Origin: an uncultured Oligoflexia bacterium
GTDB taxonomy: Bacteria; Bdellovibrionota; Bacteriovoracia; Bacteriovoracales; Bacteriovoracaceae
Direction of reading: 5' to 3'
NCBI GenBank assembly: GCA_913058265.1
Contig: CAJXPQ010000002.1
Coordinates: 186,001 to 250,000, forward strand
Length of the DNA stretch: 64,000 nt
How positions within the stretch are numbered: the first letter of the stretch is position 1; each line of letters starts with the position of its first letter. This document shows positions 45,956-63,946 of this stretch, piece by piece. The notes under the pieces are model-generated. The model saw only the letters and a list, made by a program, of their open reading frames with translations, was not told the origin of the DNA and did not search any database. Made by a program: the position numbers and the translations under genes.

Positions 45956-45975
45956 TCAATCTAGGTAGGAGAGGA

Positions 45976-47397
45976 ATGAGAACAGCACTAGTCTTAATGC
46001 CAATGTAGAGCGTTGACACGGCACCTTTGGCGTTGGCATATCTATAGCGGTCAGTATGAGAAAAGCTGAGCTTGAGACCCTAATCTTTGATATTAACCAA
46101 GAAATTTGGAATGAATCTGTCAAAGAAGATAGTATTAATTCTAATTATTGGGGTGAGACTTTAGCGAAAAAACTGGGAGTTTAAAGCTAGCTACTTTGAG
46201 GTCATTCATCCTAAGCTATCGAATAAAATAAAAAAGAAAACAACAAAATTAATTAAAACTTTAATCAAAAATAAGGTGGAAGTGGTAGGCTTCACTGTAT
46301 ATGACACAGCCTTATACCCTACAGTATTTGCTATTAGTATGAATAAAGAATTTCTTCCTCATGTAAAAGTAGTGCTTGGGGGTCCTTCGATGTCTTTAGA
46401 TTATTGTCAAACACATCTCTTGAAAGAATTTAAAGCCGGGCTAATTGATGTGGCCGTTTTAAAGGAAGGTGAAATTACTTTAGTTGAACTCGTTAAAAAG
46501 TGGCGTGTTGACGAGAATATAAATGAAGTGACTGGATTATTGATGCCTAAACAGGGGAGTATAGTTTCAACAGGATCTCGTATTCTGGCCAATCTAAATG
46601 AAACCCCAATGCCCGACTTTAGTGATCTTAATCTAAATAATTATAGGTATAAAGCAATTCCCACCTTAATGTCTAAGGGATGTGTGGCCCAGTGTATTTT
46701 TTGCAGTGAGGTAACATACTGGGAGCGCTTTAGGTTTAGAGATACTGATTTGATATTGGAAGAAATAAAAAATCATGTAGCAGAATATAATATCAATCAT
46801 GTGATGTTCCTTGATTCATTAATTAATGGCCATCACCGTCACCTTGAAGAGCTCGTCGGCTTAATTTTAGACGACGGCTTAAAGATATCATTTAATGGAA
46901 ACGCAAGAGTATCTAATAGACTTACAAAGAGCCTGATAGAACAAATGAGCGCTGCCGGGTGTTCTGACTTAGTTTTCGGCCTTGAGAGTGGTTCACAAAA
47001 AGTTTCAGATTTAATGAAAAAAGGAATAAAGCTTGAATGGGCAGATGAAAACTTTAAAGATTGCTTCAAAAATAATATTGGGGTTATTTTGAATATAATT
47101 ATTGGCTATCCAGGGGAAAGTGAAGAGGACTTTCAACAAACATTGGACTTAATTGATCGTTATAAAAAATGTATTACACATGTTAATGTTGGTAATGGTT
47201 TAGCGATCTATAAGGGAATGTCGTTGTATCCAATCGCTGCTAAACTCGGTGTTGCAAGCGATGAGCAAGGTGAAGTTATTTTTGATGAAAATGAGAATTG
47301 GAGTATGGCAGACGGTTCGAGTGACATTAATACTAGAAGATTAAGGATTTCTAGATTGCGTAATTTTCTTGCTAGTAAGAATATGAACTATTCTTAG
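45976..47397 (+). pseudogene. B12-binding radical SAM gene with a destroyed 5' end
   Basis: From ATG 45976 the frame reads MRTALVLMPM then TAG (46006), then SVDTAPLALAYL and another TAG. The sequence then continues in a second frame (MRKAELETLIFDINQEIW to AKKLGV, TAA at about 46184) and returns to the first frame at FKASYFEVIHPKLSN. From GTG 46276 an intact 373-residue part remains, with CVAQCIFC cluster motif and a paralogous match to the gene at 50077 along its length. Compared with that paralogue (MKVCLVLLPQWDTQ...), the first TAG replaces a Trp codon. At least two stops and two frame changes are needed, so the N-terminal cobalamin-binding part is lost. Restart at GTG 46276 would make a truncated protein. 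Confidence 0.85.
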
Positions 47398-48476
47398 ATA
47401 TCAAGAATGTTATTTTTTACTAAAATATCTAAAATCAATTCAGACATTACTTTCTCTCCCTTAGGGGAGTAGTGATAACTTTTTGGATACTCATAATCGA
47501 TAAGAGTATTGCCGTCCAACTTATAAATTTCTATTTGCTCTTCTTTCGATTTATTATATAGATCTGTTAGGAATTTGTGCCCAAAAAAATGTAGGAGTAC
47601 TACGAGTTTTGATTTAGGGAAAGATTCTTTTATCACTTTTTCAAGCTCTTTAAAAACTGTAATAATTAACATCATCTCATCTTCATCTAAGGTATCTTTT
47701 ACTCCGTAAACACCGAACTGATCCTTGAGCATTCTTTTCCAGCAATGATTCATAAGACTGGCTTTAAATGTTCTAGGTAAGACTTTTATTAAAGTTGATT
47801 GAAGTAATTCTGATTCATTAAAAGTCCCCTGATATTTAAGACGTTTGTTTGTTAACGAATATTTCGGTGCGTTGATATTGGAGTCATGTACGTTAAAGCA
47901 TATATCACCCAGAATACCTCTTGCATGAGAAGTATTAAACAATAGAAGAGCAATTCCTTCTTCTTGGGGAATTTCTTCTTTTAAGGGAAAGTTTCGAAAT
48001 CGTCTCAAGTGCTGTGTTGGAGCGTACCACCAACCTCCGTAGACATAGGGACTAAAGTTTTTAAGTTTTTTTGCGATGTGATAGGCATAGGTTTCATTAT
48101 CATTAACAGTGTCAGAAAGAACATATGAGCCTCCAATGAATAAGAGAAATTTACTTCTCTTATTAAGATTTTCTATGGGGATTACTCTTCTCCCAAAGTG
48201 ATCAATACTCAAAGTCGCATCAAATATTTTTTTTCCATTTTGAACTGACCAATGTCTTCTCTTCGAATCGAACTCAAATCCCCAACCTAGAAGCTCGTTA
48301 ACTGCGATTCTTCTTTTTCTAACTTCCTTAGATTCATTGTTTTCCGAAACATCAGCATTATAATTGATCGCTCTCTCTTCCTGTAACGCAATTGTGTACT
48401 GAGTAAAGGCGAAGAATACACAGATGATAACTAAACAACAAAGGGACAAAATCATTAATGATTTTTTTTTTAACAT
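47394..48476 (-). CDS. Membrane-anchored SGNH/GDSL-like hydrolase
   Basis: A 360-residue protein with an N-terminal membrane helix (residues 7-27). FLLFIGGSYVLSDTVND near 110-125 resembles the SGNH block I (GxS in place of GDS). SYHYSPKGEKVMSE near the C-terminus resembles block V (DxxH with HxSxxG). Such enzymes transfer or remove acyl groups, often acetyl groups on polysaccharides. It overlaps the radical SAM gene upstream by 7 bp, so the two are one transcript. Block II and III residues are not clear, so the call is moderate. Confidence 0.55.
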   Translation of the reverse strand: MLKKKSLMILSLCCLVIICVFFAFTQYTIALQEERAINYNADVSENNESKEVRKRRIAVNELLGWGFEFDSKRRHWSVQNGKKIFDATLSIDHFGRRVIPIENLNKRSKFLLFIGGSYVLSDTVNDNETYAYHIAKKLKNFSPYVYGGWWYAPTQHLRRFRNFPLKEEIPQEEGIALLLFNTSHARGILGDICFNVHDSNINAPKYSLTNKRLKYQGTFNESELLQSTLIKVLPRTFKASLMNHCWKRMLKDQFGVYGVKDTLDEDEMMLIITVFKELEKVIKESFPKSKLVVLLHFFGHKFLTDLYNKSKEEQIEIYKLDGNTLIDYEYPKSYHYSPKGEKVMSELILDILVKNNILDI

Positions 48477-49966
48477 TTTGAAGGTTCTCTTTGTGTCGAT
48501 GAGATGTTTTTATTATTCAATCCTAATTCAAATGTTATAAGGTCTTCTCTAAACTGTTGTCTTGATTCAGGATACTTATTGAAGTTGTAGTATCCCGTAT
48601 TTCCAAAAATGTTAACGAAAAGATCATTTTCGAGGGCCAGGTAAGAGCAGTCGATGTAAACAGCGTCATCAATTGATGTACTAGAAAGTGCATTGTGGTT
48701 TAGTGTTTCCTGAAGGTTACTATTCCTCTGAAGATAAAATCTTTGTACGAGAATTCCAGAGCATAAATCAGCAACCCTTTTAAGGTGTTTAATTGTTAGA
48801 AGTGCATCTTCAATACTTTCATCTGGATAGCCAAACATATACATTGGTTGAACATTAATACCAGCTTGATGCAGTCTCTCAATGAACGGTTCAATATTCT
48901 CAGAGATAACCCCTTTTCTCATTCCATTTAAAGTTTTTTGACTATAGCTTTCAACCCCTAAATATAGTTCCTTACATCCACTCTTACTTAGGAGACTTAT
49001 GAGCGCTGAGTCCATTCTTGGATCGACTCTACACATCGAGTACCACTCGATTTCTAATTTTTTTTCAACAACCTTAGTTGCGACCTCTTTGAGCCAATTA
49101 AGATCTCCATTTATTAGAGAATCAACAAAGTTGAACTTTCGGATACCATATTTAGAATTCATATGTTGTAAGAGCTCAATAACCTTGTCTGGACTGAGCT
49201 TTCTAAATGTTCTCCAATAGTTCACTTCTGAACAAAATCTACATCTTGCGATGCAACCTCTGGTCAGGCTTAAGGCCGCGGTACTTTTAGAAGAACTAAA
49301 AAATGTCTCCTTGAAATCACTAAAATCAGGAAAAGGTAAGTCATCCATTTTAACTTGAATTTGAACTTTATTTTCTATAATATTGCCATTCTCTCTGATA
49401 ATTGAGCTCGAAATCGGCCCTGTAAAGTCACCGTTTAAACTATCTATATATTGTTTGAAGCCAATTTCTCCTTCTCCAACGATGACTGCATCGATAAAAG
49501 GGAAGTCTAGCATGACATTCTTTACTTGGGTCAAGTTACCCCATTGTGGTCCACCGCATACAATTTTAAGTTGAGGCATCAAATCTTTTAGGAATGAAGC
49601 TACAAGTAGACTCATTAAGTAGTCATCCTCGTAGAGTGAAAAACCGATAACAGCAGGTTTTAATTCTAGAATTTTTTTACTGTAGTAAATTATACTTTTG
49701 TAGAGATTTTCATTCTTTTTATAAGACTCTAGAATGCCTTGAATATTAGATTTACTCTCTTTTTGTACCGTTTCTGTAATGAGGCTTGAAATTTCACCCG
49801 ATAGATAAAAAACATTTGTATTACATGTAATATTTTTGGATTGGATATAAGCCTTTAGAGACGCTATTCCCAGCGGAGGTTCAACAGCAAAACCTGTTGG
49901 AATCTCGTAATCAGACCTCCAGTTCGTATGATAAAATTTAACTAGTTGAACATGCATAAAAGCCAT
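48470..49966 (-). CDS. B12-binding-type radical SAM protein
   Basis: A 498-residue enzyme. The N-terminal half has a cobalamin-binding-like Rossmann fold (IVCGGPQWGNL, DAVIVGEGEIGF). Cys238-x3-Cys242-x2-Cys245 in LTRGCIARCRFCSE binds the 4Fe-4S cluster. NFVDSLINGDLNWLKEV, YLGVESYSQKTLNGMRKGV and MYMFGYPDESIEDALL follow the rSAM barrel. B12-dependent members often methylate unactivated carbons or do ring changes; others only keep the fold. It is a paralogue of the genes at 45976 and 50077, with the same DSLING motif. Overlaps the SGNH-like gene. Confidence 0.85.
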   Translation of the reverse strand: MAFMHVQLVKFYHTNWRSDYEIPTGFAVEPPLGIASLKAYIQSKNITCNTNVFYLSGEISSLITETVQKESKSNIQGILESYKKNENLYKSIIYYSKKILELKPAVIGFSLYEDDYLMSLLVASFLKDLMPQLKIVCGGPQWGNLTQVKNVMLDFPFIDAVIVGEGEIGFKQYIDSLNGDFTGPISSSIIRENGNIIENKVQIQVKMDDLPFPDFSDFKETFFSSSKSTAALSLTRGCIARCRFCSEVNYWRTFRKLSPDKVIELLQHMNSKYGIRKFNFVDSLINGDLNWLKEVATKVVEKKLEIEWYSMCRVDPRMDSALISLLSKSGCKELYLGVESYSQKTLNGMRKGVISENIEPFIERLHQAGINVQPMYMFGYPDESIEDALLTIKHLKRVADLCSGILVQRFYLQRNSNLQETLNHNALSSTSIDDAVYIDCSYLALENDLFVNIFGNTGYYNFNKYPESRQQFREDLITFELGLNNKNISSTQREPSKC

Positions 49967-50076
49967 TATAGCTTAGATTTATCTGAATGAAACCTCGTAA
50001 GTAGGCTAAAAGTATTGTGATCCATTAGGTAATGATATATGTTAAGCTATGTTTATTAACTGACATGTGGAGTTGA

Positions 50077-51504
50077 ATGAAAGTATGTCTTGTTTTATTG
50101 CCTCAGTGGGATACACAATCGCCACCCTTGGGAATCAACTATGTTGGAAAAGCCTTACGAGAAGCTAACCATAGTGTGAGTTTATTGGACTATAATAATG
50201 AAATGAGACTAAGGGCCAACCAACTCAATGATATTGAGGCTATTAGTCTGTGGGATGATACACATCTTGCTTATTGGTTTACTCAAGAGTCCTATAATTC
50301 CAGAGTCTTTCCCGTATTAAGAAATTTATTTGCAGAATTTGAGCATAAGCTGATTGCTTATATTGAAAAGCATAATATTGAGGTGTTAGGCTTTTCAATG
50401 TTTTATACTAATCGATTTGTATCACTAGATTTTATTAAAAGGATTAAGAAAGAGTTCCCTCAGTTGTTGGTCGTTTTGGGAGGACCTTCCGCGTCATTAA
50501 CTCAGGAGATACTAAAGTTTCTCTATGCTGGTTTAATCGATGCTATTATACCGAACGAGGGTGATCAGTCTATTGTCGATCTAATAGACGCCTGGGAGTC
50601 CGGAAAGCCAATTGATTCTATTGCTGGAGTTAGGGGGAGAGAAACTAAGAGGTTTCAACCACGTCCAGCTATGGACATGAATGAGTTACCAATAATTGAT
50701 TATGTAGACTTCAACTTTGAAGAATATCAAGAGATTCAAATACCCATTATGATGTCTCGAGGCTGTGTAGCTAAATGTACTTTTTGTGATGAACCAGGGT
50801 ACTGGGGGAAATTTAGATTTCGAAAACCCGAGGGTATCTTAAACGAGATGAAGCTTAATGCCGAAAAATACGGAATAAAAGATTTTGAGTTTATGGATTC
50901 ATTAATAAATGGACATATTAGATACTTAAAAGAATTGGCCAGCCTGCTAAGAGATGAGAAACTAGACCTTGCTTTCGGTGGTAATGCTAGAGTTTCAAAT
51001 AAGATGGACTATGAATTTCTTAAGTTACTTAAGGAAGCAGGGTGTAGTCATCTTGTGTTTGGTATGGAAAGCGGCTCTCAAGCAATACTAGATTTAATGA
51101 AAAAAAATATTAAAACTGAGTGGGCATATGAAAATTTTAAGAACTGTTTTGAATTAGGAATAGAAGTCCATATCAACCTAATTGTTGGTTTTCCAGGTGA
51201 AACAGAGAAAGACTTTCAGGAGACAATTAAATTTGTTAGATCAGTTCAGAAATATTTGAAAAGAACATTTGTGATGAATATGGAACTTTTACCTGGAACG
51301 GATGTTTTTATGAACCCTCAGAAATATGATATTAAGCTAAATGATGATGGTTCAATATTCTTCGACTCCTATGTTGATAGCTGGATTAATAAAGACGGTT
51401 TAAATAACTTAGATATAAGATTGAAGCGCAGATCTCAACTTCAACAGGTTATTGCGGAAAACCCAAATATTATTAATTATCCTTTATATCTGAATGAGAA
51501 GTAA
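50077..51504 (+). CDS. B12-binding-type radical SAM protein
   Basis: A 475-residue enzyme. The N-terminal part (CLVLLPQWDTQSPPLGINYVGKAL, VLGGPSASL, IIPNEGDQSIVDL) is the cobalamin-binding-like domain. Cys230-x3-Cys234-x2-Cys237 in MSRGCVAKCTFCDEP binds the cluster. FMDSLINGHIRYLKEL and FGMESGSQAILDLMKKNI follow. TGGAG precedes the ATG. It is the intact full-length paralogue of the broken gene at 45976. Divergent from the 48470 gene, it probably serves the same pathway. The substrate is unknown. Confidence 0.87.
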   Translation: MKVCLVLLPQWDTQSPPLGINYVGKALREANHSVSLLDYNNEMRLRANQLNDIEAISLWDDTHLAYWFTQESYNSRVFPVLRNLFAEFEHKLIAYIEKHNIEVLGFSMFYTNRFVSLDFIKRIKKEFPQLLVVLGGPSASLTQEILKFLYAGLIDAIIPNEGDQSIVDLIDAWESGKPIDSIAGVRGRETKRFQPRPAMDMNELPIIDYVDFNFEEYQEIQIPIMMSRGCVAKCTFCDEPGYWGKFRFRKPEGILNEMKLNAEKYGIKDFEFMDSLINGHIRYLKELASLLRDEKLDLAFGGNARVSNKMDYEFLKLLKEAGCSHLVFGMESGSQAILDLMKKNIKTEWAYENFKNCFELGIEVHINLIVGFPGETEKDFQETIKFVRSVQKYLKRTFVMNMELLPGTDVFMNPQKYDIKLNDDGSIFFDSYVDSWINKDGLNNLDIRLKRRSQLQQVIAENPNIINYPLYLNEK

Positions 51505-51587: not shown

Positions 51588-52679
51588 ATGAAAACTGTCT
51601 CATTTCCATTACTTACATCTTTACTCTTTTCAATCAACTCTGCCATGGCGCTAGATGTGCCACAGAAAGATAATAAAGCCCTGCATGTTATTAAATGGAA
51701 AATAGCACATGCTCCTAAAGAATACTTTGAGCACACAGCTAAAGAATTTAAAAAAAGAATTGAAAGAAGAACTGAAGGTAGAGTAAAAGTTGAAATTGAA
51801 TCGGCACTATTTGATAAGGTTAATCATGATTTTCAGGCTCAAGTAGATGATGTTCGGAGTAATAAGAATCAGGTGAGCCAGGTGTACCTTTCACAACTAT
51901 ATAAAGTTCAGCCAGATTTTAAAGTATTAAACCTGCCATTTTTATTTAAAAATAATCTTCATGTTGATAAAGTGGTCGATGGAAAAATCGGTAAAGAGTT
52001 ACTTGCCAGTATGAAGGATGATAAAATTGAAGGACTGTCTTATACTTATTCAGGTGGCTTTATTAATGTTGTATCAGTTAAGCCCCTAGAGATCGTTGAA
52101 GATTTTAAGAATTTAGCTTACAGGGCGTTTAGCGGTGAAGTAAATTCTTTAGTTCAGTCTCAAATGAAGACAGATGTCACGAATGAATATATTAAAAACA
52201 AAGATGGTACTTATAGCTATCTTACTATAGATAAAATGCTTGAAAGAGGCTTGATTTCTGCTGGTGATGCTACATCTAATGATGCAAGATGGGCCACTAG
52301 TATCCCAAAGAACAACCAGGCTAAGTACTTAACTAAAACAGAACATTTTGTTCTTTTTACGGCCTTAATTATTAATAAAGAGTTTATATCGAGTTTAAGT
52401 CAGAAGGATGGCGAGATCGTAAGATCAACAGCTAAAGAAGTTTCCAAAATAGAAAGAGATTATGTTGTTAGAGACGGGTTAAAAGCAGAGATTGAATTAG
52501 CTAAAGCCGGCGTGAGTGTTTCTTCCTTCCCTCAAAGTGAGCGTATGAAATTAAAAAAAAGAATGGTTAAAGAAATTTATCCAATAATTGAAAGTCAGGT
52601 AAGTAAAGGATTAATTATTAAAGTTAGAGATGCTTATACCCCTAAAGTATACAAACCTAGACTCATTACAGAAAACTAA
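51588..52679 (+). CDS. TRAP-transporter-type substrate-binding protein (DctP family)
   Basis: A 363-residue exported protein with a signal peptide (MKTVSFPLLTSLLFSINSAMA). WKIAHAPKEYFEHTAKEFKKRIERRT at the start, PFLFKNNLHVDKVVDGKIGKEL in the middle, and FKNLAYRAFSGEVNSL fit the DctP/TRAP solute-binding family, which captures small carboxylates and other ligands in the periplasm. No DctQ or DctM membrane genes are nearby. The carboxylate-binding Arg seems to be R134-like in the AYRAFSG part. It overlaps the amidohydrolase frame and is probably co-transcribed with it. Confidence 0.8.
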   Translation: MKTVSFPLLTSLLFSINSAMALDVPQKDNKALHVIKWKIAHAPKEYFEHTAKEFKKRIERRTEGRVKVEIESALFDKVNHDFQAQVDDVRSNKNQVSQVYLSQLYKVQPDFKVLNLPFLFKNNLHVDKVVDGKIGKELLASMKDDKIEGLSYTYSGGFINVVSVKPLEIVEDFKNLAYRAFSGEVNSLVQSQMKTDVTNEYIKNKDGTYSYLTIDKMLERGLISAGDATSNDARWATSIPKNNQAKYLTKTEHFVLFTALIINKEFISSLSQKDGEIVRSTAKEVSKIERDYVVRDGLKAEIELAKAGVSVSSFPQSERMKLKKRMVKEIYPIIESQVSKGLIIKVRDAYTPKVYKPRLITEN

Positions 52680-54459
52680 TATTAAAAATTCTCTTATGAT
52701 TAGCATATTGATAGTCACATCCAACCTGTGTTATTCACAGGTTGCAGACACGGTTTTTTTGAATTCAAAAGTTTACAACAGCGATCTCAGGAATTTCTCA
52801 CAAGCATTTGCCATTAAAAAAGGAAAGTTTCTTCACGTGGGAACAAATGCACAAGTTCAAAAATATATTGGTAAAAATACACAGATATTAGATGGTAAGG
52901 GCAAGTTAGCTTTACCAAGTTTCTTTGATTCCCATCTTCACTTTCTAGATATTATCTGGAGTAGGAAAGGTTGTTCTTTAGATAATAAGCCTTTGGGTAC
53001 AAAAGAAGTGATCACGAATATAAAAAATTGTATAAAAAAACAAAATACTCAAAGAATACTACTCGTAAAAAACTGGAACTATTCACATACAGCAAAACGA
53101 CATAAAGAATTGATAAACGAGTTAAATAAATTGAAGTTAGGGCTACCCATACTATTAGTAGGCTCAGATCAACTGCATTACTCCGGAAACTCTCAGTTAT
53201 TATCTTTAGTAAATAACAAGAACTCACTTGGAGTTTTTGGTTTTGAGTCATTAAAAGACCTAAGCGGCTATGAGAAAGAATTATTTTTCAAGCCAAATAT
53301 AGAAGAAGCAAAATCTTTAATAGCAGAGCTAAATTCACAAGGTATCACGTCTGTTTTAGATGCATTTGTAATTTATAAACATTTAGATTTTTATGAAAAG
53401 CTGTTTCGTGAACCGGACGCAACTCTTAATTTTAATATGGCGCTGCACCCTTACTTTAGTAAAGAGGAGCTTGGAAGCACTAAGCTACTAGGATCACATT
53501 TGAACGCAATCACAATGTTAAGAAAAAAGTATTCAAAAGAGTCAAAGATGACACTCAGTTCATTGAAAATTGTATTAGATGGATCGCTTGAGGGAAACCC
53601 CTATAGTAAACCAGTTACCTACCCAACTGCAGCAGTGAAAAATCCTTATTTTTCCCCACATATCGATACACATGGAGATCTAACTTATGATCTCCAAAAA
53701 GATAAAAAAGGCGTATTACTATATACAGAAGGAGAACTCAAAAGCTTAATAACAATGGCAAATAAAGAGAAGCTTTCAACTCATATTCATGTCATGGGAA
53801 ATCGATCGTATAAAGTTTTAATTGATATTTTCGAAAGTATAGGAGATTTAAAAGCACCACATTCCCTTGCTCACGTTCAATTTGCTGACATTGAGGATGT
53901 TAAACGAGCTGGTAAACTTGGATTATTTCAAACAATGACCTATTCTTGGATAGATACTGATCTAGAATATGATTCACTTGTCTTTCCTTTTGTTAGTAAG
54001 TTCAAGACTGTCAGGGATTTATATAAAGGGAGCAGTCATATTTTTAAATCCAGCTATCCTGTAAAGAATTTTCAACACTTTGGAGGAACTTTAACTTTTG
54101 GTAGTGATGCACCTGTTGAGTCCAATAAAATTAGTCCTTTTCTTAACATCTACCATGCTTTGAAAAGAAGAAGTCCAAAAAAGAAAATCAGCTTAAATAC
54201 GAAAGAATCAATAGATATTTATGATGCTGTTGATAGCCTTACCATTAATGGAGCTCGACTTGTAAGGCAAGCACACAGGACAGGATCTATTACTAAGGGA
54301 AAGGATGCCGACTTTCTTTTAGTTGATCGAGATATATTTCAACTATATAAAACTCAGAAATTTGAATTAATAGCGAAAACAAAGATTTTAAAAACTTTTT
54401 ATCGAGGTAAACTTGTTTTTAATCAAGTAGATACTCATTCTCAAGACGGTAAGCACTAA
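52630..54459 (+). CDS. Exported amidohydrolase (YtcJ-like, amidohydrolase_3)
   Basis: A protein of about 609 residues. The metal motif HLH is at 102-104 in FFDSHLHFLD. Other family marks are STHIHVMGNR, HSLAHVQFAD, LTFGSDAPVE and the C-terminal GSITKGKDADFLLVD, all as in YtcJ-like amidohydrolases, which cut C-N bonds of cyclic or amide substrates. The N-terminal helix (SLMISILIVTSNLCYS) is a signal peptide. With ATG 52630 it has Lys residues before it; ATG 52696 is the alternative, with no overlap but a weaker signal n-region. It overlaps the TRAP-type gene by 50 bp and the MBL gene (convergent) by 41 bp. Confidence 0.8.
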   Translation: MLIPLKYTNLDSLQKTNIKNSLMISILIVTSNLCYSQVADTVFLNSKVYNSDLRNFSQAFAIKKGKFLHVGTNAQVQKYIGKNTQILDGKGKLALPSFFDSHLHFLDIIWSRKGCSLDNKPLGTKEVITNIKNCIKKQNTQRILLVKNWNYSHTAKRHKELINELNKLKLGLPILLVGSDQLHYSGNSQLLSLVNNKNSLGVFGFESLKDLSGYEKELFFKPNIEEAKSLIAELNSQGITSVLDAFVIYKHLDFYEKLFREPDATLNFNMALHPYFSKEELGSTKLLGSHLNAITMLRKKYSKESKMTLSSLKIVLDGSLEGNPYSKPVTYPTAAVKNPYFSPHIDTHGDLTYDLQKDKKGVLLYTEGELKSLITMANKEKLSTHIHVMGNRSYKVLIDIFESIGDLKAPHSLAHVQFADIEDVKRAGKLGLFQTMTYSWIDTDLEYDSLVFPFVSKFKTVRDLYKGSSHIFKSSYPVKNFQHFGGTLTFGSDAPVESNKISPFLNIYHALKRRSPKKKISLNTKESIDIYDAVDSLTINGARLVRQAHRTGSITKGKDADFLLVDRDIFQLYKTQKFELIAKTKILKTFYRGKLVFNQVDTHSQDGKH

Positions 54460-55723
54460 TCGGGTTCCACCCAATCCAACCATCAATCATTTTTTCGGGC
54501 TCAAACCCCATTAATTCTAGAATAGAAATATCTTTTTTAAGCTTATTATAGAAACCTGTAAAAGGTAGTAAGAGATCTTTAGATGAAAGGAATTCATTTA
54601 TCTCCAGTGCATTATAGTTAAAGCGGATATCCCAATCTTCTGATATGTGAGTTTCTTTAAGTGTAAGCTCTCCATTTTCTAGGATCAGAAAATCATAGTG
54701 ATCTTTACCATTCAAGACACGAACAAATACAGTACAATTCGATGTTATAATGTTAGTCCACATCCTGTGTCTACAGTCTTTTAAATTTTTAAGCAAAGAC
54801 TCTTGTACAAAAACCCTCCAATTTAAGTGACTTGTTAACAATCCATGATTTTTTAATATAGATTGTTTAAATTTTGTAGGATTAAAGGGGTGCTTTACTG
54901 GGCCTTTCTTTTCACAGGTAACTATGCTTGAATCCGAGAAACTAATTTCTGCTTCCGCTATTTCAAATTTCTCTCCAGGGTGACCACAATGAACTTTGAA
55001 TGAGCAATGTTCTTTCTCTAAATCCTTTTTAAAATCCAATATATTAATCGGATAAAGACCATAATTCATTCTTTCATCAAGTGATTTTAAACCTGAAGAA
55101 CTTGGAATTAAGTATTTAGTATTAAAAGACCTTGTAATCATCTTTAGTCGTTCATATCTTCTAGTAGGAAATTCACACTCCTGAGGCCAGTTGGCAGCGT
55201 GCTCAAGTAATAGTTGATAAGGACAGAAAATAAGACTGAACTTAGACGTCACTCTTTCTGAAACTTGTTTCAAAATTGATGGAGTGATGACTGTATCAAC
55301 TTGATTCCATATATATAAACCTTTTACAGATAATATAAAGCCATACTCAAGATGAATCGGAGAGTCAGAGGGGGTAGGTGTAATGGTCAGACTTTCAAGC
55401 TTTATTGGAGAGAATTTAGAAATAGCTTTAATGTTTTTAAATCCCTCTTTTTTTAGGAATAAAATGTGATACGCACTCTTCGGACAGTAAATTGGTGTTT
55501 CAAGCCCGACTATCTTTAAGGATTGAATGTCGAAATGGTCATCATGAAAGTGAGAAAGAAAAACGGCATCTATCTTTGGTATTTGATTAACATGAATCTT
55601 TCGATCGGGGAATGGTATTGATTCTCCGTTTTCAAATGTGCTTCCGAAAACAGGATCGATAAGAATATTTATATTGTTGCTTTGAATAAGATAACTTGCA
55701 TGACCTAATGCTGTAATCCTCAT
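54419..55723 (-). CDS. MBL-fold metallo-hydrolase
   Basis: A 434-residue cytoplasmic protein. ITALGHASYLIQSNNINILIDPVF and HFHDDHFD (58-65) are the metallo-beta-lactamase fold start and zinc motif HxHxDH. VHCGHPGEKF gives a later His. The fold part (1-250) resembles UlaG/NAPE-PLD-like enzymes; the C-terminal 150 residues are an extra domain of unknown role. It is one base downstream of the JmjC-like gene, which suggests a shared transcript. The substrate is not known. Confidence 0.8.
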   Translation of the reverse strand: MRITALGHASYLIQSNNINILIDPVFGSTFENGESIPFPDRKIHVNQIPKIDAVFLSHFHDDHFDIQSLKIVGLETPIYCPKSAYHILFLKKEGFKNIKAISKFSPIKLESLTITPTPSDSPIHLEYGFILSVKGLYIWNQVDTVITPSILKQVSERVTSKFSLIFCPYQLLLEHAANWPQECEFPTRRYERLKMITRSFNTKYLIPSSSGLKSLDERMNYGLYPINILDFKKDLEKEHCSFKVHCGHPGEKFEIAEAEISFSDSSIVTCEKKGPVKHPFNPTKFKQSILKNHGLLTSHLNWRVFVQESLLKNLKDCRHRMWTNIITSNCTVFVRVLNGKDHYDFLILENGELTLKETHISEDWDIRFNYNALEINEFLSSKDLLLPFTGFYNKLKKDISILELMGFEPEKMIDGWIGWNPISAYRLENEYLLD

Positions 55724-55724
55724 A

Positions 55725-56522
55725 TTATTCCAGTGCCTTTCTAAGAGCGTCCCAACGAACTCCTACTTGATTAACTTCACAATTAACTGAAATATTCACC
55801 CCAAAGCTTTTGGTAGCATGCCACCAATCTTTAGGCATTATTAATAGATCTCCGGGATTGAGAGTAATTTCGAAACCTGTAATTGATTCTATCAAATTGC
55901 TATTATCATTAAAAGCCAAGACATCTGACCAGACCGTTTCTTCTCCATATGACTTGGCAACTTTTGTGTGATTTAAAAATTTAAAGAGTGCATCTATTTT
56001 TTGTTTGGTAATTATTTTCATTTTATCATCAAAGGACGGTGCAACGAACCTCACTACTTTTTTTCCATAAATTTGTAATAAAAAAGCACTTTTTGAATCT
56101 TTGTGAAAATCAATAACTCTATTATTTCCATTAATCCAAAGTGTAAGCGCGTCTGGCCCAAGAGATGATGAGGTAAATCGGGATAGATCTATTAAGTCAC
56201 TATTTAATTCAGGGTTCTCAATAATGACTCTAGGACACTCCTCAACAGCTTTATTCTCAAACAAACCGTTTTTCATCTGACAATTGACTTCCTTAATTGA
56301 TAAAAATTCTGTATTTGAAAAACTTTGTATAAAGTTCATTGCACTGTGTGAGGGCAGGTATTTACTAACACTAACCTTTTGATGAGGGCAAATGCTATTT
56401 AGGTAATCCATATTCCACTTTTGTACTGCAGGACTATCTTTCATTACACGCGGAAATATCTGAGGATATTGGAGAGTTTCAACATTAAATAGCGGTAATG
56501 ATTTAAACATAAGTTGGCTCAT
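55725..56522 (-). CDS. JmjC/cupin-like Fe(II)/2-oxoglutarate oxygenase (copy A)
   Basis: A protein of about 265 residues. FHKD (metal HxD) is followed by the AFLLQIYGKKVVRFVAP strand, and LNPGDLLIMPKDWWHATKSFG gives the distal metal His. These are the marks of the FIH-like JmjC/cupin_8 family, which hydroxylates protein or small-molecule side chains. An upstream TTG frame reaches 56537, but ATG 56522 is more natural. Its partner genes are the MBL-fold gene downstream and a divergent glycosyltransferase. It is paralogous with the genes at 57728 and 59275. Confidence 0.75.
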   Translation of the reverse strand: MSQLMFKSLPLFNVETLQYPQIFPRVMKDSPAVQKWNMDYLNSICPHQKVSVSKYLPSHSAMNFIQSFSNTEFLSIKEVNCQMKNGLFENKAVEECPRVIIENPELNSDLIDLSRFTSSSLGPDALTLWINGNNRVIDFHKDSKSAFLLQIYGKKVVRFVAPSFDDKMKIITKQKIDALFKFLNHTKVAKSYGEETVWSDVLAFNDNSNLIESITGFEITLNPGDLLIMPKDWWHATKSFGVNISVNCEVNQVGVRWDALRKALE

Positions 56523-56556
56523 TTTGAAATGATACAAGGAAATTTAGACTTTTCCA

Positions 56557-57696
56557 ATGACTATCATGAATGTTAGGCTAAGTCTGATGAGCATAGTAAT
56601 TTATGAAAATTCAGATCAAGCTTGGCTGAGCATGAAGAAGATTGTACCTGGACTTAGCTCTTGTTATCGCGAATTCCTTTCTGGTCAGGATTCTTTATTT
56701 ATTACAAATTTATCCGAGTTAAGTTCTGAGAATTATAGTACCGTTGTAAGTTTAGATGGTAAACTTGAGAAGCTGTATTTGATCTGCGAAAACTGTACTT
56801 TTGGGCAATTAATTATCCATATTCATGGTGACTTTATGGATAGGCTATCCGATTGGATGGATTTTCTTGAATCACAGATAAAAGAGAATATTAAACTTGT
56901 TTGTTCTACAACCGCACAGCAGCGCTTAATTTTTAATCTCATGAGGTATGAGAGCTATATTCTTCCACCATTCCAATTAAACGATAAAAAAATTAGTCTG
57001 TTGAAGAAAGACTCATATAAATTTATATATTTTGGACGTATTAGCGAAAATAAAAATATCGACTGGTTGATCCAATACTTTGATAAATTTCAACGTCTGA
57101 CTAATAGGTCTGATGAGCTCATCATTCGCGGTCCAGTTGATGATATAAAATGTATGCTTAAAGATATGTCTCGAATCCCTACTAAACTTGATGCTTACCT
57201 TGAGCGATTATGTGCAGAAGCTCACGGCCATATTGATTTGAAGTTCGGTCAGTTTCCACTATCAGAGTTGGATGGCTCCGATTTCTTTATAAGTCTCAGT
57301 ACATATCATGATGAAGATTATGGGCTTGCAGCTTTTGAGGCAATAGAAAAAAACCTTATTCCTATCCTTACCAACTGGGGCGGTTATAAGAGTTTCAACC
57401 GGGCATGTGGAGTGGATGGTATTAATGTTAAACTTACCACGAATGGCGCAACTCTGAATGTTATGAGCTTCACAAAGCAAATGTTATTCTTTCTTAATGG
57501 TCTGGATTTAAAGGTTTCAAGTCTGGAACAAGATGACTTGGAGACGATAATAACCGGCGAAAGATTTTTTACGAAAGAAAATTTCATTGAGCTAAAAAAA
57601 GCGGATACATTTAAAAATGATATTGGAATCACGGATTTTTTTAGTGAGGTAGAAGCTCTCACTTATTTTAAACTATACAATAGTTCATATTGCTAA
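56557..57696 (+). CDS. Glycosyltransferase, GT4-like (copy A)
   Basis: A protein of about 379 residues (ATG 56587 is a possible start, giving 369). FIYFGRISENKNIDWLIQYF is the usual GT4 hinge motif with EN-K, and SLSTYHDEDYGLAAFEAIEKNLIPIL corresponds to the ExxxGxxxxEA region. TNWGGY follows. Such enzymes add a sugar from a nucleotide-sugar donor. The gene is a clear paralogue of the 60054 gene: both have ISLS...DEDxGxxxxE and NWxGY. A JmjC gene follows after 31 bp. The donor and acceptor cannot be told. Confidence 0.72.
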   Translation: MTIMNVRLSLMSIVIYENSDQAWLSMKKIVPGLSSCYREFLSGQDSLFITNLSELSSENYSTVVSLDGKLEKLYLICENCTFGQLIIHIHGDFMDRLSDWMDFLESQIKENIKLVCSTTAQQRLIFNLMRYESYILPPFQLNDKKISLLKKDSYKFIYFGRISENKNIDWLIQYFDKFQRLTNRSDELIIRGPVDDIKCMLKDMSRIPTKLDAYLERLCAEAHGHIDLKFGQFPLSELDGSDFFISLSTYHDEDYGLAAFEAIEKNLIPILTNWGGYKSFNRACGVDGINVKLTTNGATLNVMSFTKQMLFFLNGLDLKVSSLEQDDLETIITGERFFTKENFIELKKADTFKNDIGITDFFSEVEALTYFKLYNSSYC

Positions 57697-57727: not shown

Positions 57728-58471
57728 ATGAGTCTGGTAAAGTGTAGTGACATCGTATTTCCAAAGTTAATCTCAAGGATGGGTATTAAGTGGCAAGCTC
57801 TAAAAAAATGGGATGGTAACTATTTTATTCGCAAGGTTCCAAATCATGAGTTTCTTGTTTCATTCTATAGTTCAGACGTTTCATATTTAGACTCCGCTTA
57901 TAAAAACTTAAAAAAGATGAGAACTACTGAGTTCGTAAAAAAATTATCAAGCGAGCAGGTTGATAGTTTTGCTGCAGAAGAGTCAACAGGATTAATTTTC
58001 ACCCATACCGACTTAATTAAGGATTTAGATTTTTTCAAACCAATTCTAAGTGGAGAGGTGGGAGAGCGGATGATTTCACTATGGTGGTCATCTAAGAATA
58101 AAGTTACAGACTGGCATACCGACAATATCCCTTTAGTTCTTTGCCAAATTAAGGGAACAAAAACAATAAAACTCCTTTCTCCTGAGAATGAGGCCGATAT
58201 TAAGCCCATTACTGCTCGTGATTTTATGAAAAGGTTAATTTCCTTAGGGTGGGATAAGAGCGATGCCTATCAAGAAGTGCAAAGTACTCGATTTGCTGAT
58301 AAAAAAGCATTTTTTGAAAATTCACAATCTCAAAATATTTTAAGCTATGAGTTATCCCCAGGCGATTGTATTTATATTCCTAAAGGGTGGTGGCATGCTA
58401 CCAGAGCTGAGGAGGAGTCAATGGCAATTAATTTTGAAGTTTTTGAATCCGACCAACTAAACTTGGGCTAA
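57728..58471 (+). CDS. JmjC/cupin-like Fe(II)/2-oxoglutarate oxygenase (copy B)
   Basis: A 247-residue protein. WHTD at 129-132 (His130, Asp132) and His223 in IPKGWWHATRAE give the facial triad; IKGTKTIKLLSP gives the 2-oxoglutarate strand. LSPGDCIYIPKGWWHAT is the canonical end motif. It is well related to the copies at 55725 and 59275 (same N-terminal layout: a proline-rich start then KW.xxY). It begins with AGAGGTCAAAGGG 5-7 bases before the ATG and follows a glycosyltransferase gene. Cytoplasmic by lack of signal. Confidence 0.8.
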   Translation: MSLVKCSDIVFPKLISRMGIKWQALKKWDGNYFIRKVPNHEFLVSFYSSDVSYLDSAYKNLKKMRTTEFVKKLSSEQVDSFAAEESTGLIFTHTDLIKDLDFFKPILSGEVGERMISLWWSSKNKVTDWHTDNIPLVLCQIKGTKTIKLLSPENEADIKPITARDFMKRLISLGWDKSDAYQEVQSTRFADKKAFFENSQSQNILSYELSPGDCIYIPKGWWHATRAEEESMAINFEVFESDQLNLG

Positions 58472-58524
58472 ACTCTTTTTTCAAGACCCTAGTATACTTA
58501 TCAAACTCTTGGTAAGGTTTGAGC

Positions 58525-59286
58525 ATGGACTATATTGCTTATAATAAAAAAATTTGGAATTTTTTATCTCAAAAGAAAAATCTCTTAAATATAGAGCCAA
58601 CAGAAGAGCTTCTCGAGAAAGCTAGATCTGGTAAACCAGAAATATATACCGCATTTGAAAGTCCCATTGCTCAGGATTGGTTTCCTAGCTCCAATTGGAA
58701 AGACTCAAGTATTTTACTACTTGGAGCTGGAGGTGGAAATGTATCTCCTTTACTGGCCTTAGCTGGGGCAAATGTACACTTAGTCGACTTTTCTAAGGGG
58801 CAGTTAGATATTGATCGTGCTCTAAACAAAAAACTTGGCCAAGATGTTTGTTATTATGAACAAGACTTTCAAGACTTATCTTCTTTTTCAGATAATCAAT
58901 TTGACCTAATTATACAGCCTTCCTCAACTTTTTACATTGAAGACACTGAACGACTTTGGAGAGAGACCTACAGAGTTTTAAAAGAGGGAGGAACTTATAT
59001 TACAACTGTTGTTAATCCTATCTATTATATGGCCGACTTAGATACCTTGAAAGGAAGTCAGGTCCTTATTAGACCTCAGGGTAAAACTAAACCTGAAATT
59101 AGCTCAACGAAATTCGACGGAATACAATTTGCGGAGTTTGGTCACAGTCTTAATAGTTTAATTGGAGAACCTTTAAAGACCGGCTTTAAGCTAGCGCGCT
59201 TCGAGGAGAGTGGCTGGGGGAAGTATGACGATATTGGAATTGATAAAGCCTTTCAGTCATTTATCACTATGAAACTAATAAAGTAA
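58525..59286 (+). CDS. SAM-dependent methyltransferase
   Basis: A 253-residue protein. ILLLGAGGGNVSPLLALAGANVHLVDFS is motif I and the acidic loop, followed by FDLIIQPSSTFYIEDTERLWRETYRVLKEGG as motif IV-VI of class I methyltransferases. The fold is typical of small-molecule or sugar methylases. ATG 58525 has AAGG upstream at the right spacing; a TTG two codons earlier is too close. It follows the JmjC gene by about 50 bp and overlaps the convergent JmjC gene by 12 bp. Confidence 0.78.
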   Translation: MDYIAYNKKIWNFLSQKKNLLNIEPTEELLEKARSGKPEIYTAFESPIAQDWFPSSNWKDSSILLLGAGGGNVSPLLALAGANVHLVDFSKGQLDIDRALNKKLGQDVCYYEQDFQDLSSFSDNQFDLIIQPSSTFYIEDTERLWRETYRVLKEGGTYITTVVNPIYYMADLDTLKGSQVLIRPQGKTKPEISSTKFDGIQFAEFGHSLNSLIGEPLKTGFKLARFEESGWGKYDDIGIDKAFQSFITMKLIK

Positions 59287-60057
59287 ATTTGACTTTAACT
59301 TATTCCAATCAATCAGATTATTATCGACTTCAAGGTTTACTGCAAAAGAGTAATCTAGGGATTTCGTTGAGTGCCACCAATCTTTTGGTATAAATAATAC
59401 ATCCCCAGGTTGTAATAATACTTCATAATAATCAAAGTTTTCTAGTTCATCAGAAAATGATTTTAGCTTTGAATAGTTAGATGTATTAAGTTGAATGGTA
59501 GCAGCTATCTTTTCATTCATAGGTAAATTATTTTCTTTAAAGAAGTTCATTGCTTCACTTTTTGAAATGGCTTGTAATGAATTTTGATCAGTAGCCTTGT
59601 CAAGAAGTCGGACTCTTTTTTCTGAAGAGATCTGGAATAAAAAAAGATCAACATTATCGGTATGAAGATCTGTAATGCTATCTTTACTACCATACCAAAA
59701 GGAATAAAAAGTTTCTGCTGGTATCGTCTCTGTATTACAAAAAGGTGAAAAATATTTTAGATCTTCAAATAATTTAGTATTTTGTTTTAAGAGGTCAGTA
59801 GATTCATGAATTGAGTAGGAGTCTGGCTTAGACATAATCTCTTGAAAAGATTTTGCTTTTGAATCCAGGTAGTTTTGGTAGAAGTATGGAAGTTCTACTT
59901 CTTCATTATAATGATTAATATTTAATTGAGCCTTAGGAAACTCTTCTTTAAAGTAATCAATGGACCATTTTCTTATTGCCGGCCAATGAGAACAGGCCTG
60001 GGGAAAATACTGGGGGATGCACAGGTCAAGAGGGATGGATGCCTTTGGTACTTTCAT
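59275..60057 (-). CDS. JmjC/cupin-like Fe(II)/2-oxoglutarate oxygenase (copy C)
   Basis: A 260-residue protein. LHTD at 131-134 (His132, Asp134) and His229 in IPKDWWHSTKSL give the metal triad; LFQISSEKRVRLLDK the neighbouring strand. Copy C is similar in layout to copies A and B. It overlaps the upstream glycosyltransferase gene by 4 bp (ATGA) and is the last gene of an agmatinase, deoxyhypusine-synthase-like, glycosyltransferase, JmjC operon. Its 3' end overlaps the methyltransferase gene. Confidence 0.8.
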   Translation of the reverse strand: MKVPKASIPLDLCIPQYFPQACSHWPAIRKWSIDYFKEEFPKAQLNINHYNEEVELPYFYQNYLDSKAKSFQEIMSKPDSYSIHESTDLLKQNTKLFEDLKYFSPFCNTETIPAETFYSFWYGSKDSITDLHTDNVDLFLFQISSEKRVRLLDKATDQNSLQAISKSEAMNFFKENNLPMNEKIAATIQLNTSNYSKLKSFSDELENFDYYEVLLQPGDVLFIPKDWWHSTKSLDYSFAVNLEVDNNLIDWNKLKSNLLY

Positions 60058-61478
60058 CTTTTAACCTTGGACACTATATACCCATGACTCATTAGCCATT
60101 GATTTTGATGTTCATCTTTTGGAATTAATGTACTTCCTCTATGGGGATCTTTAATTTCAATGCATGTTTCCTTGATGCTGACCCAGGGTGCCAGTTCAAA
60201 CTTAGTATATTGAGTATCAACTAATTTAAGCTTTTTAGCACCATAGATTTCAAAGATCTTTTGTACCAAAGCATCAGCATATGAGTGATAAATGACTCCG
60301 TGTTGGGGCCATTCACGGTCTCCAAGTTTAACTTGCGGACTGATAACAGCTTGCTTGTGTATTTTTCTGGCAAAATCCGTATACATCATAGGGGATTTAT
60401 TCTCTTCTAGAGCTTCTAGCTCAATCAAAGGGGGAGATATATACTTTTTAAATTCTGTTTCAGTAGCAACTTCAAAATGAAGCTGCTCAATGGTAGACAG
60501 TACGAGTTCGGAGGTTTTTTGTGGGTCAATAAAGGGACCTGCTTCTGATTGATTTACCGTAACTCCTTCAACTAAACCTGGAAAGTCATCAATGAAGTTT
60601 GAATATCCTTCCCAGTTACTAATAATACTGGGGATACCAAGCGTACAACACTCCAAAATTGAAAAACCAAAATCTTCATCAGAGTGTAAACTTAGTGAAA
60701 TATTTAAGCAGTTTAATGCGAGAATTCTTTTATAAAGAAGTTCTATTTTTGGCTGAAACTCTTCGAAGATAACTAAATCAAGAATTCCCATTTTTGTACA
60801 GTAAGAATAGAGTTCCTCAAGATAGGCGCCACTGGGCAGGCCCATGTTAGGACTTCCTAAGTTATCTTGATGGCCAAAGACGTATAATTTAATTCCTTTT
60901 TCTCTCAGATCTCGTTGTATTAAACCTATAGTCCAAAGAGTAGTATGCAAGTTTTTTTGTGGGGAGATTCTTCCAATATAGCAAAGATTCTTTATAGGTC
61001 CTTTAAATTTACCAAGAGATAACAGGTCCTTATTAATCATACCTGGAACATGAAAGGATGGCATATTTGTTAGTAAGGAAATCAAGGCTTGATCTCTCTT
61101 ATTTTGAGCGATTAATATATCACTAGTTTTTAGTACTAATTCAAGATGAAGACTTTTATAGTTAAAAAAACCTATTGAAGGAGATTCTTCAGTATATGAA
61201 ATGACTCTTGCTGTTGTATTAATACTTTTTCTAACGGCTTCAAGGAATGGAGCTGTCTTAGCATCAAGTCTTAAAAAAATGAGGAAATCCATTCCAGCAG
61301 TTTTAATTAAGTCAGATGGGAGAAATGGGTAATTGATATGATCTAAAGTGGTTATTTGATAATTGTCTTTATATTGGGTCCAGTAATCTATAAAACTATT
61401 TCGCAAAGAAGAAATACTCGTCCAGAGGTCATCTTCATGACAGGTGATAAGTAAGATTCTTTTTTTTTGATCAGTCAT
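60054..61478 (-). CDS. Glycosyltransferase, GT4-like (copy B)
   Basis: A 474-residue protein with the GT-B fold: LCYIGRISPQKNLHTTLW near 185-205 is the hinge and second-domain start, and LSLHSDEDFGFSILECCTLGIPSII the donor-binding region. NWEGY follows. It is paralogous with the 56557 gene but about 100 residues longer, with a basic C-terminus. It overlaps the deoxyhypusine-synthase-like gene by 8 bp and the JmjC gene by 4 bp, so the four genes are clearly one translational unit. Donor and acceptor are unknown. Confidence 0.8.
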   Translation of the reverse strand: MTDQKKRILLITCHEDDLWTSISSLRNSFIDYWTQYKDNYQITTLDHINYPFLPSDLIKTAGMDFLIFLRLDAKTAPFLEAVRKSINTTARVISYTEESPSIGFFNYKSLHLELVLKTSDILIAQNKRDQALISLLTNMPSFHVPGMINKDLLSLGKFKGPIKNLCYIGRISPQKNLHTTLWTIGLIQRDLREKGIKLYVFGHQDNLGSPNMGLPSGAYLEELYSYCTKMGILDLVIFEEFQPKIELLYKRILALNCLNISLSLHSDEDFGFSILECCTLGIPSIISNWEGYSNFIDDFPGLVEGVTVNQSEAGPFIDPQKTSELVLSTIEQLHFEVATETEFKKYISPPLIELEALEENKSPMMYTDFARKIHKQAVISPQVKLGDREWPQHGVIYHSYADALVQKIFEIYGAKKLKLVDTQYTKFELAPWVSIKETCIEIKDPHRGSTLIPKDEHQNQWLMSHGYIVSKVKR

Positions 61479-62439
61479 ACTTTAGATTATTCTCTACATA
61501 TTTGAGTAAAATAGGAGCAACAATAGTTGCATCAGACTCGATCATAAATGATTTACTTTCAAGGTTTAGTTTTCCCCAACTAATTTTCTCATTAGGTGGG
61601 GCTCCGCTATAGCTTCCAAAACTTGTAGTACTCTCAGATATTTGACAAAAATATTTCCACCTCTTGGTTTCTTTCTTGCTCATTAGAGTTAACATTGGGA
61701 CAACACATATACTAAAGTCTCCAGCTATTCCCCCTCCAAGTTGTAAAAATCCTAGGTCATGTTGAGTCGACTTTTGGATATAAAAAAGAGCTAAGTGTTT
61801 CATGTACTCAAGACCGGATTTAATATTATTAGTATTTATCTTTTTATTTCCAGCGAGATGTTTTGCAATCAGATAGTTACTAAAGGTACAGTCCTCAAAT
61901 CCTGGGACATAGATTGGAGTTTTTGTTTTATAGCAGTTGTAAACCCAGCTTTCTTTGGCGAGTCTATTTTCGTCAATTCTTCCCTCTTTTATAAGCTTCT
62001 CAAGGAGCAGGTACACGGCCTCATGTGGGAAAATAGGGTTTTGTAAAGATTCAACGATAAGGATAAATTCTTCTGCTAATTCGTTAAAGGTTCCGCCATC
62101 TAGAAGTGTATCAGTAACTCTTAGTTCGTCTCTTTTATAGAATGCCATCTCTTCTTCTGGCTTAAGCTCTCGCCAGTCAACTTTTTGATATTTTCCAGTG
62201 AAGACCCGTAAGATATCTTCTTCAAGGTTTGCAGCTGTTGAAGTAATGGCACTGATCTTTCCATTTTTAATTAAACCAGAAAGACTTTTCCCTATTCCCG
62301 CAGTTGATAGTGCTCCTGCAATCGTTACCATTATACTGTTGCCTGAGTTAAAGTGCTCAACTAGTTCATCACCAGCTGATTTTAACTCCCTGGAGTTAAA
62401 AGATTCAAAACAATCAAAAATATCATTTATAGTATTCAT
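61471..62439 (-). CDS. Deoxyhypusine-synthase-like enzyme
   Basis: A 322-residue protein. The family's NAD-binding start (TIAGALSTAGIGKSLSGLI) and ITSTAANLEEDI are present, and the enzyme's key lysine is Lys290 in EKISWGKLNLES, as in the AVSWGKI motif of deoxyhypusine synthase. The glycine motif LGGGIAGDF lacks the His that acts as a base in the eukaryotic enzyme. Bacteria have no hypusinated eIF5A, and bacterial relatives often make homospermidine from putrescine or carry out similar aminobutyl transfer. It is 1 base overlapped with an agmatinase-type gene upstream, which would supply putrescine. Confidence 0.8.
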   Translation of the reverse strand: MNTINDIFDCFESFNSRELKSAGDELVEHFNSGNSIMVTIAGALSTAGIGKSLSGLIKNGKISAITSTAANLEEDILRVFTGKYQKVDWRELKPEEEMAFYKRDELRVTDTLLDGGTFNELAEEFILIVESLQNPIFPHEAVYLLLEKLIKEGRIDENRLAKESWVYNCYKTKTPIYVPGFEDCTFSNYLIAKHLAGNKKINTNNIKSGLEYMKHLALFYIQKSTQHDLGFLQLGGGIAGDFSICVVPMLTLMSKKETKRWKYFCQISESTTSFGSYSGAPPNEKISWGKLNLESKSFMIESDATIVAPILLKYVENNLKYD

Positions 62440-63421: not shown

Positions 63422-63946
63422 ATGGAAAATAAAAGCGAAACTTTAGCCGATTATGGCAAATTTGGAAAAATCGAGAAAGTTGACCTTCAAGAAGTGTTTA
63501 ATGAGTCAGTGTTATTAGCGGCAGCTTGTTTTCATCCTTCTAGTTTAGTCGCTATGGAAGATGGTACGAATAAGTCTCTTGCTAGTATTGAGATTGGCGA
63601 CATAACGAAAGTTGGCGGCAAAGTCTATATGAAGTTGGAGTCTATCTCGAACGATCTTTACCTTTTGGATGATATACTTGTTTCTGGTAATCATGCAGTA
63701 TTTGATGAAGAGGGACGAGGTGAGTGGATATACGTGAAAGATTTTAGTCGTGCAAAATCTGTTCCCGGCGCTTGTCAGGTCATAAGTATAGCGACTGAGA
63801 ACCATGTTATTAAAGCCGCTTCAGGAAAAATGTATTCTGATTATTATATGACAGACAACTTTTCAAATTTACTAAATAAAGAGTTGCTATATTGCATTCA
63901 AAAAGAGCTCCCGGCATCTAAGCTCGCTAAGCTGGGTGGCAAATGA
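63422..63946 (+). CDS. Hint-domain (intein-like) protein
   Basis: A 174-residue protein. After a 35-residue N-terminal part comes CFHPSSLVAMEDGTNKSLASIEIGD, the Hint block A with Cys36 as first residue. SGNHAVFDEEGRGEWIYVKDF resembles the block with the conserved His, and TENHVIKAASGKMYSDYYMTDN resembles the last Hint blocks. Hint domains can cut or splice proteins; this one has no clear C-terminal His-Asn. It may be a processing domain or a stand-alone relative. A possible promoter (TTGACT at 63387, TAAAGT 17 bases later) lies so close that the transcript may lack a leader. It overlaps the next gene by 4 bp. Confidence 0.55.
   Translation: MENKSETLADYGKFGKIEKVDLQEVFNESVLLAAACFHPSSLVAMEDGTNKSLASIEIGDITKVGGKVYMKLESISNDLYLLDDILVSGNHAVFDEEGRGEWIYVKDFSRAKSVPGACQVISIATENHVIKAASGKMYSDYYMTDNFSNLLNKELLYCIQKELPASKLAKLGGK

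Follow-up and report, generated by a model that had tools for sequence, protein, structure and literature searches.

The 64,000-nucleotide stretch analyzed here (the window) covers positions 186001-250000 of contig C2 (CAJXPQ010000002.1) in a 3.23-Mb, 25-contig draft genome of an uncultured Oligoflexia bacterium (GCA_913058265.1). It holds three genes for B12-type radical S-adenosylmethionine (SAM) proteins, termed here rSAM1, rSAM2 and rSAM3, which share a DSLING motif, lie around a gene for an SGNH-fold protein, and stand at one end of a conserved cluster, some 20 genes long, extending past the right end of the window. By their domains, these proteins are B12-rSAMs, and the clade marked by DSLxNG to which they belong is uncharacterized. 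The reading we favor makes rSAM2 and rSAM3 tailoring enzymes that depend on cobalamin and act, together with an acyl step of the SGNH-fold protein, in a cluster for an unknown product; taken as a whole, it is offered tentatively, at somewhat under an even chance of being right. For rSAM2 and rSAM3, the most likely reaction would be methylation, with methylcobalamin as the donor and an unactivated carbon in a biosynthetic intermediate as the acceptor. The rSAM2 reaction would probably be coupled to the membrane-anchored SGNH-fold protein, which would remove or move an acyl group of the product outside the inner membrane. This pair would belong to the cluster, whose product would be heavily tailored, and rSAM3 would probably be accessory to it.

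The domain make-up of the trio is clear. All three proteins exceed the Pfam Radical_SAM cut-off of 29.5 bits (rSAM1, 73.6; rSAM2, 59.7; rSAM3, 90.9), with E-values of 5e-16 to 1e-25, far beyond chance, and each contains both CX3CX2C and DSLING. The Pfam B12-binding domain (cut-off 32.1 bits) is matched above the cut-off by rSAM3 (50.1) and below it by rSAM2 (23.3) and the truncated rSAM1 (20.7). The open remainder of rSAM1 occupies 46276-47397 on the plus strand. It is followed on the minus strand by the SGNH gene (47394-48476) and rSAM2 (48470-49966), which overlap by 7 nucleotides, and on the plus strand by the intact rSAM3 (50077-51504). A preliminary description of the window, made from the sequence and a list of open reading frames (ORFs), had placed three B12-type rSAMs with DSLING and one SGNH-like gene at 46276-51504. 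Pfam, the motifs and a fold match bear this out, and the positions of its ORFs hold, except that the first gene is incomplete, with an apparently decayed N-terminal part.

The distribution of the motif defines the clade. The survey comprised 101 B12-rSAM proteins scoring above 80 bits to a seven-sequence profile, after removal of duplicates; they came from ORFs of the window and of the fetched loci, which are only part of the loci matched in whole-genome searches. The clade line was set at a gap in the scores, at 230 bits. Above this line, DSxxNG is present in 20 of 22 proteins, 11 of them reading exactly DSLING, a proportion to be read with the fact that DSLxNG proteins were the source of the profile, which makes clade membership and motif interdependent. 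The two exceptions read DDLVNG and DDSLIS. None of the 79 other B12-rSAMs examined has DSxxNG; at the same position many of them have DD or DL, and three have DALIN. The possibility that DSLING is general to B12-rSAMs, which the preliminary description had itself raised, was rejected on this count, and its proposal of a specific subfamily gains support. Of the two shared segments on which that proposal was based, F/L-DSLING and ESGSQ/ESYSQ, both are present, and only the first is clade-specific. ESGSQ was discarded as a subfamily mark, because ESGS occurs in 22 of the 79 proteins outside the clade and ES[GY]SQ in eight of them, versus eight of 22 inside. A wider census (above 225 bits) extended to other families of the phylum; 33 of its 38 clade members carry DSxxNG. 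In the phylum search, which scored four candidates per genome, the clade was matched at E <= 1e-62 in 32 of 368 genomes, 25 of these at more than 230 bits, in seven families. DSLING presumably lies at the position of the SAM contacts in other rSAM enzymes.

Curated families hint at methyl transfer. TIGR03975 (rSAM_ocin_1, C-methyltransferases of ribosomally synthesized and post-translationally modified peptides, RiPPs) is the best NCBIfam match of rSAM2 (131.7 bits), of rSAM3 (144.3) and of three further members of the clade that were scanned; rSAM1 scores 96.9 bits. The resemblance stops short of the family cut-off of 281.85, and there is no proven peptide substrate for the window enzymes. 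TIGR04479 (PhpK-type P-methyltransferases) is the best match for rSAM1 (100 bits) and for the rSAM of a related cluster described below, and the second best for rSAM3 (142.8); rSAM2 scores 93.5. Here too the matches, at 88.8-142.8 bits, do not reach the cut-off (600), and no phosphinate genes were recognized in the cluster. Among solved structures, the clade profile matches best 9ccb_A (88.1 bits), which is annotated only as "radical SAM protein" and for which a literature search returned unrelated papers only, followed by AprD4 (64.1) and by the B12-rSAMs TokK (63.3, over parts of the B12 and rSAM domains), OxsB (62.4) and CysS (52). The likeness to the last three is confined to 52-63 bits, and the TokK alignment has DA where the clade has DS.

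These matches also bear on the idea that the enzymes are B12-rSAMs of another kind, catalyzing, like BchE or OxsB, a ring formation, an oxidation or a rearrangement. In the case of rSAM3, HpnJ (TIGR03471, 138.1 bits) and BchE (TIGR02026, 108.2 bits) score near the methyltransferase models, and OxsB matches the clade profile; against this, a C-methyltransferase subfamily heads the NCBIfam matches of both rSAM2 and rSAM3, a P-methyltransferase family comes second for rSAM3, and methyl transfer is the most frequent reaction in this class, according to PMC11659888. In our opinion, a non-methylating reaction is improbable. As for the cofactor, the DxHxxG motif occurs in none of the three proteins, which is in line with the "base-off, not His-on" cobalamin binding ascribed to the class in PMC13331322. 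A MetH match above cut-off points to cobalamin use in this genome.

The rSAM1 gene appears to be broken. The reading frame does not open before 46165, no ATG occurs between that position and the GTG at 46276, and in-frame homology to rSAM3 starts at rSAM3 residue 67. Remnants of the N-terminal part lie upstream (45974-46275, plus strand) in two frames with a stop between them, as found by tblastn and by matching the three-frame translation to rSAM3 by eye, without an aligner; whole-genome searches flag in-frame stops in the same region. Thus, rSAM1 is probably a pseudogene, a decayed duplicate of the rSAM3 lineage, and the loss of its N-terminus means that there are probably two working enzymes. 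It might be argued that rSAM1 is intact in the organism and that its lesions are assembly errors, frame changes being a common error in drafts such as this one. This is quite improbable, however: one stop and two frame changes fall within about 200 bases while the adjoining long frames stay open, and for this reason decay is likelier than error.

The history of the trio is only partly one of local duplication. Within the aligned parts, BLAST gives 39% identity between rSAM1 and rSAM3, 33% between rSAM2 and rSAM3 and 30% between rSAM1 and rSAM2. In a tree of 45 rows (22 from the clade, 23 from outside it), rSAM1 and rSAM3, each other's nearest relatives at 39-40% identity, form a sister pair with support of 90/94, just under the tool's starred level; the long rSAM2 branch has no supported neighbor. 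Forcing all three into one clade costs 2.86 log units and is not rejected (p-AU 0.376). One old local duplication is likely; triplication does not follow from these data, and a recent triplication was rejected, as rSAM2 is only 27-33% identical to the other two and does not group with them. The repeated local duplication proposed earlier therefore stands for rSAM1 and rSAM3, and not for rSAM2, the single clade not being the best tree. An initial scan of genome contigs with rSAM3 as the query confirmed no relative. Two adjacent DSLING rSAM genes are found in each of two genomes from another family of the phylum, G217 (locus L164:5314-8213) and G216 (L165:3173-6140), and local pairs of the clade therefore arise elsewhere.

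Such pairs speak for three active paralogues performing successive radical steps or acting on several substrates, as do the retention of CX3CX2C and DSLING in all three proteins and identities of 30-39%, which would allow different specificities. Yet rSAM1 has no intact N-terminal part, and the one related cluster that was found contains, in the 19.5 kb read, a lone B12-rSAM from another clade, which is also its sole CX3CX2C gene. These two facts weaken the earlier proposal of successive steps, and we regard three working paralogues as a doubtful prospect.

The SGNH-fold protein has no Pfam or NCBIfam match above cut-off. Its AlphaFold2 model, computed from a two-sequence input, is of moderate confidence (pLDDT 62.9); Foldseek against the PDB places the putative GDSL lipase 3bzw first (E 3.8e-4), along with CE2 carbohydrate esterases and TesA. 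The earlier label "SGNH-like" is thus right at the level of the fold. The protein keeps GGSYVLS, with the Ser motif, and a C-terminal His; Ser and an Asp-His pair would be the catalytic residues. Its hydrophobic N-terminal helix suggests a membrane anchor. Family-wide, the SGNH search gave E <= 0.01 in 40 of 129 genomes, with one strong non-self match (240 bits, 34% identity over 352 residues; the next match has 62 bits). Elsewhere, an SGNH-related gene touches a clade rSAM in genome G099 (21% identity to the window protein, BLAST E 7e-5), as does a GDSL-like gene in G065, contig C2 (Lipase_GDSL_2, E 0.0014, below cut-off) and, judged by eye, an SGNH-like gene in G097, only the end of which is on the contig. 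It should be noted that the number of SGNH neighbors in our census, taken within three genes of 38 clade members, is partly circular, the reference set having been drawn from the same neighbors, and does not count as evidence. Many clade members stand alone, and a relative of a twitch-type rSAM (query L004:950-2185; 315.9 bits to NF033640, cut-off 170) lies within that distance of 12 of the 38. The rSAM-SGNH pair as a repeated module on contig C6 of the same genome was considered and dropped: the C6 neighbors, called SGNH by eye, show no relation to the window protein by Pfam, BLAST or hhalign.

The strong SGNH match led to the one extended relative of the cluster, on contig PAMZ01000018.1 of a Halobacteriovoraceae metagenome-assembled genome (MAG; G057), which was read over 19.5 kb (locus L095). 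Counted from the window side and excluding the rSAM slot, 15 genes of the window and of the adjoining locus L001 have homologues there. The block from the Hint-like gene to a 312-residue ORF is collinear in both genomes and is preceded in both by a divergent ureohydrolase gene; the rest is rearranged. In G057, the SGNH gene sits between ureohydrolase and Cupin_8 genes and overlaps a B12-rSAM that lacks DSLING and is 25% identical to rSAM2. Because an SGNH gene overlaps a B12-rSAM inside that cluster as well, we tie the window pair to its own cluster. A metallo-beta-lactamase-fold gene, a third Cupin_8 copy and any DSLING rSAM were not found in L095.

The cluster genes follow rSAM3 in order, identities to G057 being given where available. 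On the plus strand are a DctP-type solute-binding protein of TRAP transporters, recognized by Pfam and NCBIfam (51588-52679, 35%), and an Amidohydro_3 protein (52630-54459, 30%); on the minus strand, a metallo-beta-lactamase-fold protein (54419-55723) and a first Cupin_8/JmjC oxygenase-like protein (55725-56537); again on the plus strand, a GT1-type glycosyltransferase (56557-57696, 35%), the second Cupin_8 protein (57728-58471) and a SAM-dependent methyltransferase (58519-59286, 40%). The first six of these were assigned by Pfam, the methyltransferase by domain search, as were the next genes, all on the minus strand: the third Cupin_8 protein (59275-60057), a second GT1-type glycosyltransferase (60054-61478, 43%) and an agmatinase-like, arginase-family ureohydrolase (62439-63314, 31% to two copies). 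Before the last lies a deoxyhypusine-synthase (DHS) homologue (61471-62439, minus strand, 63%). The Hint-like gene (63422-63946, plus strand, 53%) closes the window, and just past its end are genes for a PqqD-like protein (38%), a di-iron-type protein (59%), a carbamoyltransferase (60%) and the 312-residue protein, whose start is 37% identical over 70 residues. Two Cupin_8 genes of G057 are 25-35% identical to those of the window.

Presumed active-site residues are largely kept. HxD...H is present in all five Cupin_8 proteins of the two clusters, WGK in both DHS homologues, and the ureohydrolase metal motifs (DAHxD and DxDxxDP) in the window copy and one of two G057 copies; these residues, like the two ExxH motifs of both di-iron-type proteins, we take to have their usual roles. 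The di-iron-type proteins have no Pfam or NCBIfam match, and "di-iron" is read from the motif. In the second G057 ureohydrolase (L095:14819-15667), SAHSF replaces DAHxD, and it is likely a non-catalytic paralogue. The DHS homologue is the only PF01916 match in the genome; in NCBIfam it comes closest to a model for homospermidine biosynthesis, at a score below cut-off. SpeA is found above cut-off and is a possible source of agmatine. The euryarchaeal DHS-agmatinase clusters described in PMC5178350 are similar in that a DHS homologue lies beside an agmatinase-family gene, and differ in that no IF5A gene was recognized beside the window pair.

The Hint-like protein has a conserved N-terminal stretch of about 35 residues, followed by Cys with a block-A-like motif and by GNH. 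Its Hint matches are all weak and below cut-off (Hint, E 0.0095, in the window copy; Hom_end_hint, E 0.0019, in G057; intein chains, E 0.18), and its model (pLDDT 34.9) is too poor for a fold search. The PqqD-like assignment comes from the G057 copy (PF05402, E 0.013, below cut-off), the organism's own copy having no PqqD match. The Hint-like gene might encode a RiPP precursor. The product would then be of a new class: a peptide of about 35 residues, lying before the Hint domain, would be tailored and released by Hint onto a small nucleophile as a glycosylated, carbamoylated peptide-polyamine conjugate. PqqD-guided, rSAM, Cupin_8 and di-iron enzymes would tailor the peptide, the rSAMs being a swappable C-methylation module, and the nucleophile would perhaps be a polyamine made from agmatine by the DHS homologue and the ureohydrolase. 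We consider this proposal a long shot. Hypusination of the N-terminal stretch is not favored, as the two copies do not share aligned lysines there.

Homologues of the Hint-like protein at E <= 1e-4 occur in four of 368 phylum genomes, the organism's own and G057 at more than 330 bits and two others at 23 bits; a search against plasmids gave no match. A scan of the genome collection with the di-iron-type protein found six loci, namely G057 and five Myxococcota MAGs. In all five of the latter (L112-L116), a NodU-type carbamoyltransferase gene lies directly beside it by tblastn, so that the two make up a two-gene module. Other cluster matches at E <= 1e-5 in these loci, which span at most 20.7 kb and in one case only 3.4 kb, are a weak Cupin_8 match in L115 and weak rSAM matches in L114. 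Among titles and abstract openings, a coverage that excludes most subscription journals, no paper on such a cluster was found.

Several observations weigh against the reading of rSAM2 and rSAM3 as tailoring enzymes paired with the SGNH-fold protein. No NCBIfam match of the rSAMs, among the 25 best per protein, is above cut-off. The rSAM slot of G057 is filled from another clade, so the cluster is not tied to DSLING chemistry; the difference suggests that the step is replaceable. Three residues before the His, the window SGNH protein has Lys versus Asp in G057. In the census, 18 of 38 clade members have neither an SGNH-like gene, nor a twitch rSAM, nor a second copy nearby, and the genes after the two DSLING rSAMs of contig C6 have no SGNH Pfam match and an hhalign probability of 2.6% to the window protein.

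An explanation that draws on C6 sees the DSLING rSAMs as tailoring surface glycans and as no more than neighbors of the cluster, with a polysaccharide or glycolipid as the substrate of the clade. Two more DSLING rSAMs lie there near MBOAT, weak, below-cut-off PMT_2-like proteins, a carbamoyltransferase and twitch-type rSAMs, and the distributions differ, the high-scoring Hint gene being present in only two of 368 phylum genomes versus 25 of 368 for clade rSAMs above 230 bits. Against this stands the homology of the window SGNH protein to its counterpart inside the G057 cluster, whose gene lies between the ureohydrolase and Cupin_8 genes and overlaps a B12-rSAM. We judge the glycan explanation unlikely, if deserving of attention.

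Other rSAM-rich loci were seen as well. The glycan-like locus at C6:180000-206000 (L003, L004) holds MBOAT, carbamoyltransferase and seven rSAM genes. Two of the seven are DSLING rSAMs, and after each comes a gene whose family is unknown. Contig C4 of the same genome (L002:2569-9974) has five rSAM genes on alternating strands, two sets of which look alike by eye; the three that were scanned are twitch-type (NF033640, 336-400 bits). Recurring arrays in L166, L167, L168 and L079 combine a DSLxNG rSAM with twitch-type and other rSAM genes and, by eye, PP-loop-like genes.

The significance of these results is, in our opinion, twofold. A B12-rSAM clade that can be recognized by one motif is present in several families of a single phylum and falls below the cut-off of every NCBIfam model among the 25 best per protein. 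Moreover, one of its members is tied to a biosynthetic cluster that is conserved and apparently undescribed, includes a Hint-like protein, a DHS-ureohydrolase pair and an SGNH partner, and probably builds an unknown natural product.

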